A program made the position numbers and the translations under genes. A stretch of DNA of 64,000 bases, from the NCBI RefSeq assembly GCF_030867095.1, contig NC_081828.1:213968978-214032977 (forward strand). Direction: 5' to 3'. The notes beneath the pieces were generated by a model. That model worked only from the letters and a program-made list of their open reading frames with translations, was not told where the DNA came from and searched no databases. This document shows, piece by piece, positions 900 to 16,917 of this stretch (positions within the stretch are counted from its first letter, which is position 1; each line of letters opens with the position of its first letter). Source of the stretch: Alligator mississippiensis (Eukaryota > Chordata > Crocodylia > Alligatoridae).

Positions 900-1080
900 C
901 TTTCTCACTATTATAACGAGGCGCTCCTTGTCTCTGCAGACTAGCAGCATTAACGATCTCATCCTTACGCCTTGCTTGTGTAACGTGGATGGCTTCTAAA
1001 TGATGCTCCAGAGTAGCAGCTATGTTACCATGGACCGGACTACCTTGAAGCCTTTCCATTTTTCCTATTAAGGCGAGTAC
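900..1080 (-). CDS. MEIOC-like coding exon, C-terminal helical region
   Basis: Minus-strand exon of 181 bp reading VLALIGKMERL... and later RRKDEIVNAASLQRQGAPR. This closely follows the C-terminal domain of human MEIOC (recalled as LLGKMERL and RRKDEIVNASNRQRQGVPR), part of the region that contacts YTHDC2. The acceptor is CATTAG before GTACTCGCC, with a pyrimidine-rich run upstream; the donor is GAAAG then GTAAATG. The exon starts in phase 0, in frame with the preceding exon, and ends after one base of a glycine codon. Several positions that are constant in MEIOC, in the stretch after KMERL, differ here, which fits a paralogue better than a close orthologue. Confidence 0.85.
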
Positions 1081-1197
1081 CTAATGGATGGTTGGAAGAT
1101 ACCGACATTAAGTGCTTAAACGTCCAGGGGGAAAACAAACCAATGCACACATATATCATCTGATACTACCGACATCCAAATAATACTCCGAGCTTAC

Positions 1198-1332
1198 TCT
1201 GGCCTGTTCCCGGAACTGGTCCACAATTAAACGATCCACTCTTGAAGGGTTAGCAGGAAGTCGAGAAACAGGAGTGTTATTTGAGCTAGATACCCGCTTT
1301 CCTGGAAAATTTCTTGCAAGATCAGCCTCAGC
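1198..1332 (-). CDS. MEIOC-like coding exon ([11 protein letters not shown] motif)
   Basis: An exon of exactly 45 codons, phase 0 at both ends. It reads [16 protein letters not shown] and then [21 protein letters not shown]. Human MEIOC, from memory, has LAKNYPGKKVSS and [18 protein letters not shown] in the same order, so this is the direct counterpart. The acceptor is CTCTTTAG and the donor is CCAGA then GTAAGCT. It joins the large exon ending in ERKK upstream and the KMERL exon downstream, separated from the latter by an intron of only 117 bp. Confidence 0.88.
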
Positions 1333-1393
1333 CTAAAGAGAAAACACATCTGTTTAAAATATTTAGCAATTAGTGACTTTCTATCATCTACGA

Positions 1394-1690
1394 CAATGGT
1401 TCCCACGGTTTTTGAGATTCAAAGCACTCTTCAGAAAACACCACCTCTTAGCTTTCGCTCGTTTTTTGACTACGGAAAAAATAAAAGAGCAATTCTTCTC
1501 TTGCAGAGATCTCAGGACCACAACTAGTCAAACCATTTTTGATTCTCTGGATTCTCATTTGAAATCTTTGGTTTTATCTGGTGAATTATATGCAAGTGTT
1601 TTACTCCTAACAGTGCTAATACTGCATGACATCCTTAAAAGGGTTTCACAGCACCCCAGGGTGCTGCTGCACCCTGGTTGAAAATCACTG
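1394..1690. mobile_element. hAT-like MITE, CAGTGGTT end family
   Basis: Non-coding element with imperfect inverted ends: CAATGGTTCCCACGG at the left and CCTGGTTGAAAATCACTG at the right. The right end carries the 'hinge' ACCCCAGGGTGCTGCTGCACCC. A second, better preserved copy lies at 59473-59772, and both share an internal AGAGCAATTCTTC motif. The CAGTGGTT..AACC terminus is typical of hAT-superfamily non-autonomous elements. No transposase reading frame is present. Confidence 0.65.
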
Positions 1691-1991
1691 GCGTAAGCTT
1701 CTCTTTTAAATTAATATTTAGATACATTAGAAATGTGCCTGCCAGTTTTATTCTTTGTGTACATTCACAGCCCAAGTCAGGATTAAATACTACAAAGCTG
1801 ATTTTTGGCAGTGAAAATAAGGGCATTTACCCAATTTACAAGTACAACCTAATAGAGGCAACATATGTAACCAAACAAAACTACCTTGAAAAAGTAAAAA
1901 TAGCGGGCCTAGCTTCAAGCAAACATTGTTCCTAGAAGGTAAAACTCTAGCTGTTGCACCAACACAAGGTTTAAATTCCCAAGTCAAGTGC

Positions 1992-2308
1992 CTGATCAGC
2001 AGGGATCCTGGTTTTCTCCGATTTAAAAAAAATCCCAAGTTTTGGTTAAAAAAAACCAAACAAACAAGTAACCCCAAATCCACATTTTTCTCTGATTTTA
2101 AAAAATCCCCAATTTTCAGTTAGAAAAGTAACCCCCAATCCACATTTTTTCCATGATTAAAATGAAACACCATGAATATATAGATGTATATCTATATGCA
2201 CGTTTCATTTTGATCATGGAAAAATGTGGATTTGGGTTGGGTTTTTTTTTTTAACTGAAAACTGGGGATTTTTTAAAATTAGAGAAAACCAGGATCCATG
2301 CTGATCAG
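1992..2308. mobile_element. Foldback (palindromic) MITE, about 317 bp
   Basis: The element begins CTGATCAGCAGGGATCCTGG and ends with the near-complement CCAGGATCCATGCTGATCAG. The arms run inward for over 100 bp, including the complementary AATCCACATTTTT / AAAAATGTGGATT blocks. The centre is the short AT-rich stretch around 2175-2200. The left arm also carries an internal near-duplication (AAGTAACCCCAAATCCACA and AAGTAACCCCCAATCCACA). No coding capacity is visible. This is probably a DNA transposon derivative; the superfamily is not clear. Confidence 0.7.
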
Positions 2309-14175: not shown

Positions 14176-14296
14176 GTCCGAAATGTGGCATAGGTGCAGA
14201 AATATGAGCATGTATTTTGTGGCATTTCATAAGGCTATATGGTGCCTTATCTCTCTCCACACAATATACCGACCAATACTATCTTAAAAATAGAAA

Positions 14297-14364
14297 CTAT
14301 ATCCAAGAAAGGATGTAACTATGGCCAAGAAAGGATGAAAGAAAAATTATATCCAAGAAAGGAT
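14297..14364 (+). repeat. Short motif repeated three times
   Basis: CTATATCCAAGAAAGGAT at 14297-14314 recurs as CTATGGCCAAGAAAGGAT (14319-14336) and TTATATCCAAGAAAGGAT (14347-14364). A further exact copy stands alone at 17060-17077. Spacing is 22 and 28 bases. Confidence 0.75.
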
Positions 14365-15879
14365 ATCTTCAGTGCTATTCATCTCTTGGAAGATTTGCAC
14401 AGAAAAATGCGCCTCAAAACTGAGGATTGATTTGGTCACAATATACAGTATTTGCAAAGACCTGGTGCAAACTATTTAAGTTCAGAAACTGTTCTAAAGT
14501 ATACCTTTGGTTGATTGGAAATGATGTGCGTGTAGCACATGGTACAAGCATGCAGTGAAAAAAAAAAAAAAGATTACAGTTCAAGTCTTAACTGCATCCT
14601 GTTTGCTCCGTGCATGTCCTTTCGCAGCTTCTGATGAAATGAGCTTGGGCTTGCAAGAGCTTATGCAGCTCTGATTTAGTTAGTCTACAAGGTGCATCTC
14701 TAACATGCCTTTTTCTGCCTGTTTGAGAGAACTGCAGCTGGTAATGCAGTAAAGACGGCCTCTTGGCCCATGTGAAAGAATTGTGGCTTCTAGTACCAGA
14801 TACTTTGTGCAAGATGGTTAATAGCAAACTATGTGGATTTAGAGGACTAAGAGAAGGGAGACAGGAGAGTAAAGAGGCAAATTAACAACCTTGAGTATCC
14901 TCTCATATAAAACATGGGGAAAAGATGAATTGCCTATTTTAGCAATATACAGCACCAAAATACATCTCCAAAAGAATACATTTTTTAAATTAAAATACAT
15001 ACATTTTCCTCCATCCAAACAATTAGAAAGAATGGCTCCTTTCCCACGTAATACATTTGCCTATCTTGTTACAGCCTGAGTGTTGCCCATAGCAGTTTGT
15101 GGACTAAATTCGGGATTTAAAAAAAAAATAAAAAATACACCTTTCAAGTTACCTACCCTGCGGCACAAATATTCAAACCTACTGGATGATTCCCAGGTAA
15201 CATTTGATGTATTGCTACCATAGGTGAACCCGTGACAATACCTATTAAATTACTTCTCACAGAAGCATGGTATTTAAGTTGACTGTGTTCCTTTCAAATT
15301 TCTAGGCCAAGCAATTAAAATATAAATGTCTATCTTAACCTGGATGTACAACAAGGAGCATTGCCATTTGAAGTCTGCAGAAAATAGTTCAGCACCTCCA
15401 TGGCTGCTTAAGCATTTCCACTCTGCAACAAAGCAAAACACTTAATCTTCCCAGCAGAGAAATCAATAGGAAATCTACCAACTTCATTTTTCTGGGGCTT
15501 GGAAGCAGATCACAAGAGAGGCAAACAATAGAGATCTCTACCAAGGACAAGGACCCCCCCCCAATCAAAAGAGTACAGGCAAGTTGTGCGGATCCTTTCA
15601 ACCCCTGAAACAGCCAGAAGGATGGGAAACTCTCTCCTCAATCTGACTTTGCAGCACCTTGACGTCTCTGAGCAACGGTGAAAAGAGCGTAAAAGATACT
15701 ACTTTTCAGTAGCCAGAGAATTGTCGTTTCAACTTTTTTGTGGGGAAGGGAGGGAGGGCAGGGTGAGCAAGTCTGTCATACACTCACTGCCATGGTAGGG
15801 ACAGAAGTTACACGTAAACCAGCGTAAGTGATTGGAAACAGGTTCCAATCTTTTAACAAAAAACAGGAGTTCAGTGCAC

Positions 15880-16300
15880 ATAGACCACTTTCAAAATGGC
15901 CCAAACTGGTTTAAGATAAGCCTAGATGGACATTAGTAGCAGATTTAACTGATTTAGGTTAAATTGATTTACTGAAATTCTCTCCCAGATCCCCTCCAGA
16001 TTCAAATCAACTCTCAGTCCCCCAGCATCCCAGGATGCTTTGCACCTGCCACACAACACCCCTCCCCCTCACAGGGGGGGTAGGCTATCCTTGACCTAAG
16101 CTGTCTGCTTCAGCTAAGCAGGAAGACATGCTCTAGTGCCCCCTGGCTTCTGGTCTGGGCCACTGCAGGCATGTGGCTTCATTTCCAGACTCAAAAGTGA
16201 ATGTCTGTTCACTTGCTTATTGGTTCAATCTACGCAGCTTAGACTAACCTGCAGAGATTGAATCAATTCAGTCTTGGGCATTTTGACTGTCCCAGAGTAG
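15880..16300. mobile_element. Probable old DNA-transposon remnant
   Basis: The left part has CCCAAACTGGTTTAAGATAA and the right part has TTGAATCAATTCAGTCTTGG, words I associate with an old sauropsid MITE-like repeat. Between them are simple C-rich and T-rich pieces. No clear inverted ends were found; the call rests on impression. Confidence 0.3.
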
Positions 16301-16785
16301 AGTTAAGAAAATGTAAAAAACCTAACCAGACTGAGACCCTTTTGAAGGAATCAACACTTAAGTCCTCAGCCTCTACAGCATTAATGACGTAGAATACTTA
16401 CTGTAGTAGCAAGACTGGCCCTCCCACTCCCAGTGGATGGTCATATGTTCACTGGTAAATGGTCTGAGAATACTTTTCATATTAAATCACTCAGCATTTA
16501 TTGACCACTAACTTTCTAGTGACTGTTTTCAGAAAATCCTGCTAAAGGAGTTCACAGAAACTGATACTACTAACGGCATTCAAGGCTGGGCTAGACTAAA
16601 CAAGTAACTATTGGCTTCTGTGAATCACGGTTATCCTAAGAAACATACCAGAGAAATCTTGTCCATCCCAACAGGTAATTTGTGTTAGGTTTATTATATG
16701 GAGTTAAACATATTACTGTCTGAACAACAGTAAGATAAAACCAATTCTGATCAAATCACCAAACACAGTTGTTTTAGAGACTCAC

Positions 16786-16917
16786 CTGTGGATTGTAATG
16801 ACCAAGGGTGGTACTTTGTTTGACCATGTCCTTGCTGTCAGAATATAAATTCTCTTTTCCCAAGTTTGCATCATTGCCATATAAACAGAAATTCACATTC
16901 TTAAGCATGGGCTTAAC
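16786..16917 (-). CDS. MEIOC-like 5' coding exon
   Basis: An exon with acceptor AAATAG and donor CCACAG then GTGAGT. It reads VKPMLKNVNFCLYGND, ending TLGHYNPQ in phase 0, exactly what the next exon needs. The ATG at 16908-16906 sits where human MEIOC has an internal methionine (GSVMLTGSASFYD), with a loosely similar following block. Translation may start here or in an exon further upstream; the sequence cannot decide. Similarity is weaker than for downstream exons, so the call rests mainly on splice signals and phase. Confidence 0.6.

Follow-up and report, generated by a model that had tools for sequence, protein, structure and literature searches.

MEIOC is needed for the formation of sperm and eggs and is usually called a single-copy gene. 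Is the MEIOC-like gene that lies beside IBA57 and GJC2 in the alligator this standard gene, or a second one? It was noticed in the stretch C5:213968978-214032977 of the Alligator mississippiensis genome (64,000 nucleotides in all, hereafter the window), for which the original prediction had proposed, from the letters alone, a retained duplicate of MEIOC. Searching the assembly (2.35 Gb, 195 contigs), we found two intact MEIOC genes, one on contig C4 and the other reaching into the window on contig C5, and the window gene is an intact second MEIOC that most likely survives from the genome doublings of early vertebrates. Three alpha-globin exons of the assembly are 89, 99 and 94% identical to alligator alpha-globin, in keeping with its source. 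A second MEIOC is surprising, since the family has been described as single-copy: a survey of the MEIOC domain PF15189, with Anolis and chicken among its species, finds it 'approximately once per genome' (PMC5397071). Among the titles and abstract openings listed by targeted literature searches on MEIOC, none names a second MEIOC gene. Automatic annotation may already list the window gene under a locus number.

The window gene encodes a complete MEIOC-family protein

Six minus-strand exons with matching phases had been described for the gene. All six could be placed in the window, and a seventh coding exon with the stop codon lies outside it (C5:213964440-213964693, minus strand, 4.3 kb beyond the window start). 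All six introns are of the GT-AG type, and the spliced product, 926 residues long, has no internal stop and contains the four peptides cited earlier as signs of a MEIOC-type gene. It matches PF15189 with 263.5 bits against a cut-off of 27, over positions 1-166 of the 166 in the profile. With a score far above the curated cut-off and a MEIOC exon-intron structure, the window gene is a member of the MEIOC family. A search for solved structures of the MEIOC domain found none with an E-value of 1 or below.

The other exons, all on the minus strand, are numbered in the direction of transcription. Coding exon 1 (16786..16908) starts with the ATG in phase 0 and ends at the donor CAG/gtgagt; it probably has a non-coding start reaching to 16917, after a TAG acceptor. 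This predicted exon was placed by ATG, phase and splice signals, and it agrees with the C4 gene, which also has a short first coding exon with the identical end phase. Exon 2 (9990..10156), delimited by splice sites and phases, carries the island LYxxWSxxGDD and matches the corresponding exon of the C4 copy at 31% over 36 residues (tblastn, E 0.005), while exon 3 (8549..8650), delimited by splice sites, carries GLVSxILEE and matches at 55% over 22 residues. Exon 4 (5794..7612, 1819 bp) encodes the diverged middle part of the protein and the first 30 positions of PF15189; its 606 open codons make chance an unreasonable explanation. The core of PF15189 lies in exon 5 (1198..1332), which tblastn aligns with its C4 counterpart at 75% identity over 44 residues, and the domain continues in exon 6 (900..1080), which contains RRKDEIVNA.

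The genome carries two MEIOC loci

A PF15189 search of the whole assembly gave 8 matches from 11 scored candidates, all in two loci, C4:170.280-170.301 Mb and C5:213.964-213.986 Mb, both on the minus strand, the matches themselves lying at C4:170.28-170.29 Mb and C5:213.96-213.97 Mb; there was no third MEIOC locus among these 8 matches. The presence of two separate loci in one genome, set beforehand as the test of a second copy, was thus established, and the window copy is not the only MEIOC of this genome. The C4 gene is likewise intact, with 7 exons, 905 residues and a full-length domain scoring 285.2 bits. Intron phases are equal at all six positions (0,2,2,0,0,1); in the alignment, four of the intron junctions coincide exactly and the other two, in poorly alignable stretches, are offset by 1-3 columns. 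Since the two copies have these introns in common, the window gene is not a retrocopy.

The copies have diverged unevenly. Overall identity is 33% (284/857), falling to 24% before the domain (157/646) and reaching 72% within PF15189 (119/166, with 47 positions different). Outside the domain, 17-residue windows with at least 9 identities mark the islands DxxGLVSxILEE, GFxxLxLxExWLxP and DLFxYDDxxHL, together with the domain border, and LYxxWSxxGDD is a further common island visible in the alignment. The N-terminal half and the C-terminal tail are otherwise almost wholly different. This low overall identity, together with the near-saturated fourfold-degenerate sites described below, rules out a recent duplicate or an assembly duplication.

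To place the copies relative to mammalian MEIOC, we used a provisional human domain sequence, so that the following comparisons serve as a lead only. The C4 copy agrees with this human sequence at 152 of 166 domain positions and the window copy at 117. Human sides with the C4 copy against the window copy at 39 positions and does the reverse at 4; at 6 others the two alligator copies are alike and human differs. The earlier impression that the window gene departs from human MEIOC more than a one-to-one orthologue should is in keeping with this lead. A one-to-one orthologue would be the copy closest to mammalian MEIOC and would lie in the ARF2-WNT3-WNT9B block. The window copy does not look like that copy; it is the C4 gene that holds the WNT3 block, and its closeness to the human sequence agrees with its gene neighbourhood. 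The C4 copy is likely the orthologue of the standard vertebrate MEIOC.

Both copies lie in collinear blocks of paralogous genes

On C4, MEIOC is followed by an ARF gene (170.311-170.316 Mb, minus strand), a WNT3-type gene (170.457-170.469 Mb, minus) and a WNT9-type gene (170.584-170.588 Mb, plus). On C5 the window gene is followed by IBA57 and GJC2 (both minus), an ARF gene (214.208-214.212 Mb, minus), a WNT3-type gene (214.412-214.457 Mb, minus) and a WNT9-type gene (214.597-214.614 Mb, plus). The order and strands of MEIOC, ARF, WNT3 type and WNT9 type are identical at the two loci, the difference being the presence of IBA57 and GJC2 between the MEIOC-like gene and ARF on C5. The 65 WNT matches in the assembly were grouped by hand into 20 places, among which only these two hold opposite-strand pairs at most 0.3 Mb apart.

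Comparison of six last exons of WNT genes (15 pairs, two genes serving as contrast) showed that the WNT3-type exons of C4 and C5 share 141 of 150 residues and the WNT9-type exons 94 of 146, each pair being mutually closest; the other 13 pairs have 59-80 identities over 137-146 positions. Against solved structures, the C4 WNT3-type exon scores 382.7 bits with Wnt-3 and 350.3 with Wnt-3a and is clearly Wnt-3, and in the C5 exon two residues that separate Wnt-3 from Wnt-3a follow Wnt-3a. For the C5 WNT9-type exon no WNT9 was among the structure matches, the best being Wnt-7a. The best match of the C5 ARF in the PDB is ARF1, and the C4 ARF carries residues that we take to be those of ARF2.

IBA57 is represented in the window by three exon-bearing open reading frames (ORFs) on the minus strand (35294-35752, 37038-37502 and 41228-41587), the second and third assigned by reading. 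The first matches PF25455 and TIGR03317, of the CAF17/YgfZ family; the family scan gave no match for the second. The GJC2-type connexin ORF (57654..58910, minus strand; PF00029, 337.5 bits) is nearest, among 16 other connexin ORFs, to a GJC1-type ORF at C4:161.92 Mb, with 58% identity. In mammals, MEIOC lies near GJC1 on 17q21, and GJC2 with IBA57 on 1q42. WNT3/WNT3A, WNT9A/WNT9B and GJC1/GJC2 are early-vertebrate duplicates situated on human 17q21 and 1q42. The pairing of GJC1 with MEIOC invoked by the original prediction holds in that both lie on C4, and fails as a tight linkage, the two being 8.4 Mb apart. At that distance the GJC pairing alone is weak evidence, and the collinearity of ARF and WNT backs the genome-duplication reading better. 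The proposal that the two loci descend from one duplicated ancestral block thus gains its support from the ARF, WNT3-type and WNT9-type neighbours.

Related genes were also seen elsewhere. A third GJC-type connexin ORF (404 residues, C4:254617846-254618589), 55-57% identical to the GJC1-type and GJC2-type ORFs, lies 0.7 Mb from a WNT pair at C4:253.92-253.94 Mb, where PF15189 has no match; this ORF is possibly one more remnant of that quartet. At C15:6605186-6611705, ARF-type and WNT-type genes stand about 4 kb apart, again with no PF15189 match, in an arrangement resembling human ARF3-WNT10B-WNT1. A third MEIOC near the connexin at C4:254.6 Mb or at the C15 place was rejected, none of the 8 PF15189 matches lying there.

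The two copies are as diverged at silent sites as their neighbours

At fourfold-degenerate sites the two MEIOC copies are identical at 33 of 90 positions (0.37, with 0.30 expected by chance). The other pairs of the block give 28/84 for GJC1/GJC2 (0.33; chance 0.22), 17/50 for the WNT3 type (0.34; chance 0.27) and 16/39 for the WNT9 type (0.41; chance 0.26). The silent sites of the two copies are near saturation, and the divergence of the MEIOC pair is as deep as that of the neighbouring pairs. Divergence of this depth and collinear blocks that include other gene families are what a pair born by genome duplication should display, and both were found here.

Several observations weigh against this dating and against the equation of the C5 block with its presumed counterpart. 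The C5 WNT3-type exon scores slightly higher with solved Wnt-3 (356.0 bits) than with Wnt-3a (347.4), and the name WNT3A is used provisionally, on the strength of position, the two Wnt-3a-like residues and the synteny in human. ARF2, WNT9A and WNT9B are likewise presumed names. GJC1, as said, shares a contig with the C4 MEIOC at a distance of 8.4 Mb. The fourfold sites of the MEIOC domain itself are less diverged (22/45, or 0.49), in small numbers. The duplication was dated through block context and saturation within this one assembly. Finally, since the survey covering Anolis and chicken counts about one gene per genome, many sauropsids may lack the second copy.

A single YTHDC2-type locus is likely present

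For mouse MEIOC, the coiled-coil domain is reported as the part that binds YTHDC2 (PMC4729902), and the domain as both necessary and sufficient for this binding (PMC5832417). MEIOC, YTHDC2 and RBM46 are described as destabilising target mRNAs, E2f6 and Mga among them, and so bringing cells to meiotic competence (PMC11273298).

The alligator assembly was searched with a provisional piece of human YTHDC2. With this probe, 8 of 32 matches (78-92% identity) fall in C3:226.723-226.735 Mb, and YTH exons lie on the same strand near C3:226.686-226.689 Mb, which points to one likely YTHDC2-type locus, on C3. The remaining 24 matches, at 33-66% identity, are taken for other helicases; they include the match with the best E-value of all 32, at C5:217.749 Mb, with 46% over a longer stretch. 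A match on C13 was rejected as YTHDC2, being closer to YTHDF-type genes. This sequence (C13:34583801-34584300) is a frame-shifted, partial YTHDF-type YTH domain, 75-84% identical to three YTHDF-type places, and is probably a pseudogene.

Repeats around the gene

Exons 4 and 5 of the window gene are separated by a large intron with CR1-type reverse-transcriptase fragments on the plus strand (2609..5120), which are not part of the MEIOC-like gene; RVT_1 matches at 4146-4949 (1.9e-10), and the name CR1 and the limits were read from ORFs by eye. At 61480-61755 (minus strand), a 92-residue ORF reads, by eye, like the end of a non-LTR (long terminal repeat) retrotransposon reverse transcriptase. Between 26200 and 28230 a long low-complexity stretch rich in CA/TG stands beside a number of tandem repeats, one of 51 bp, one of 149 bp and several shorter. 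The sequence at C5:213948137-213949312 is likewise rich in CA/TG and has long ORFs in six frames. In the 20 kb on the 3' side of the gene (C5:213943001-213963000), reading of ORFs of at least 70 residues found none that could be named; the family scan was not run there.

Discussion

Taken together, these data make it probable that the window gene, here called MEIOC2, is the intact early-vertebrate genome-duplication partner of MEIOC and acts via YTHDC2 in germ cells. We infer the age of the duplication, expression in germ cells, binding of YTHDC2 and a division of labour between the copies. An ancestral block of MEIOC, GJC, ARF, WNT3 and WNT9 would have been duplicated, leaving a C4 descendant of MEIOC-ARF2-WNT3-WNT9B type and a C5 descendant of MEIOC2-IBA57-GJC2-ARF1-WNT3A-WNT9A type. 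The C-terminal helical domain of MEIOC2 would bind YTHDC2, as that of mouse MEIOC does, and MEIOC2 could then steer the helicase complex towards destabilisation of mRNAs as cells pass from mitosis to meiosis. The diverged, probably disordered N-terminal half, in which short motifs are kept, may alter the partner, the timing, the sex or the set of targets. In the simplest mechanism, one helicase would be served by two adaptors and specificity would reside in this diverged half, and a second YTHDC2 adaptor in germ cells appears the likeliest role of the window gene.

The alternative that survives best, though improbable, is that the window gene works outside meiosis with another partner, its fold having been preserved after the duplication while binding of YTHDC2 or expression in germ cells was lost. 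Almost complete rewriting of the N-terminal half and C-terminal tail, and the 47 changed domain positions, are in keeping with such a shift. The best-kept part of the protein is nevertheless the very domain that binds YTHDC2 in mouse, as reported (PMC5832417), and three N-terminal islands are kept as well.

The early-vertebrate origin of the pair can also be questioned in two ways, both of which we consider quite unlikely. A tandem MEIOC pair could predate the vertebrate genome doublings, each block having kept a different member. This would account for an overall identity of 33%, low beside the 65% of GJC1/GJC2 and of the WNT9-type exons, and for N-terminal halves that can hardly be aligned. 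However, MEIOC varies widely between species outside its domain, mouse and zebrafish having a reported identity of 28.5% (PMC12289311); moreover, the fourfold divergence resembles that of the other pairs of the block, and extra losses would be required. Equally improbable is a later duplication, in tetrapods or sauropsids, that landed near GJC2 by accident. It needs no losses and agrees with zebrafish, which by its authors' search lacks a second PF15189 gene (PMC12289311), and with the survey figure of about one per genome (PMC5397071). Yet a copy landing at random would fall within 0.7 Mb of the one matching ARF-WNT block with a chance of about 6e-4 (1.4/2346 Mb), order and strand uncounted, the fourfold sites are near saturation, and, in the provisional comparison, the window copy is much more distant from the C4 copy and from the human domain than these two are from each other.

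That the window gene is a decayed relic, untranslated yet still open, is very improbable: its seven exons are all open, its splice sites intact and its stop codon normal despite near-saturated silent sites, whereas in an unselected copy this old many stops should have accumulated.

Retention of MEIOC2 from the genome doublings, our preferred explanation, would have consequences for other lineages. We infer the loss of the second gene in mammals. In a broader and rather tentative scenario, early jawed vertebrates used two MEIOC adaptors on one YTHDC2; crocodilians, and perhaps other sauropsids, would still do so, each copy serving its own sex, stage or targets, and mammals and zebrafish would have reverted independently to one. 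If this two-adaptor ancestry is true, differences between mouse and zebrafish knockouts partly reflect lineage-specific losses. An ancient second copy shifts the baseline for comparing MEIOC function between mouse and fish, and if lineages each kept one copy, the orthology of MEIOC between them must be checked. The pair is also a natural experiment showing where the MEIOC-YTHDC2 machinery tolerates divergence, and it may help the study of how meiosis begins in reptiles whose sex depends on temperature.

Comparison with known MEIOC-type proteins

Compared with MEIOC itself (C17orf104, Gm1564), the window gene has the full-length PF15189, six intron phases that all equal those of the C4 copy, and the islands GLVSxILEE and DLFxYDDxxHL. 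Mouse MEIOC is reported with 965 residues and eight putative exons (PMC4729902), against 926 and 905 residues for the window and C4 copies. The window gene differs in standing in an IBA57-GJC2-ARF1-WNT3-type block rather than beside ARF2 and WNT3, and in its sequence, which retains 72% identity in the domain and 24% before it and has another N-terminus and C-terminal tail. Zebrafish meioc (minamoto) belongs to the same family and is similarly divergent outside the domain; its authors' search found no other PF15189 gene (PMC12289311), in contrast to the two described here. Drosophila Bam, whose partner is Bgcn, is a diverged MEIOC homologue and offers a precedent for divergence of a MEIOC-type protein in one lineage. 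Bam is very diverged, and its origin by duplication is reported as undecided (PMC5832417), whereas the window gene shares 72% of its domain residues with the standard MEIOC present in the same genome.

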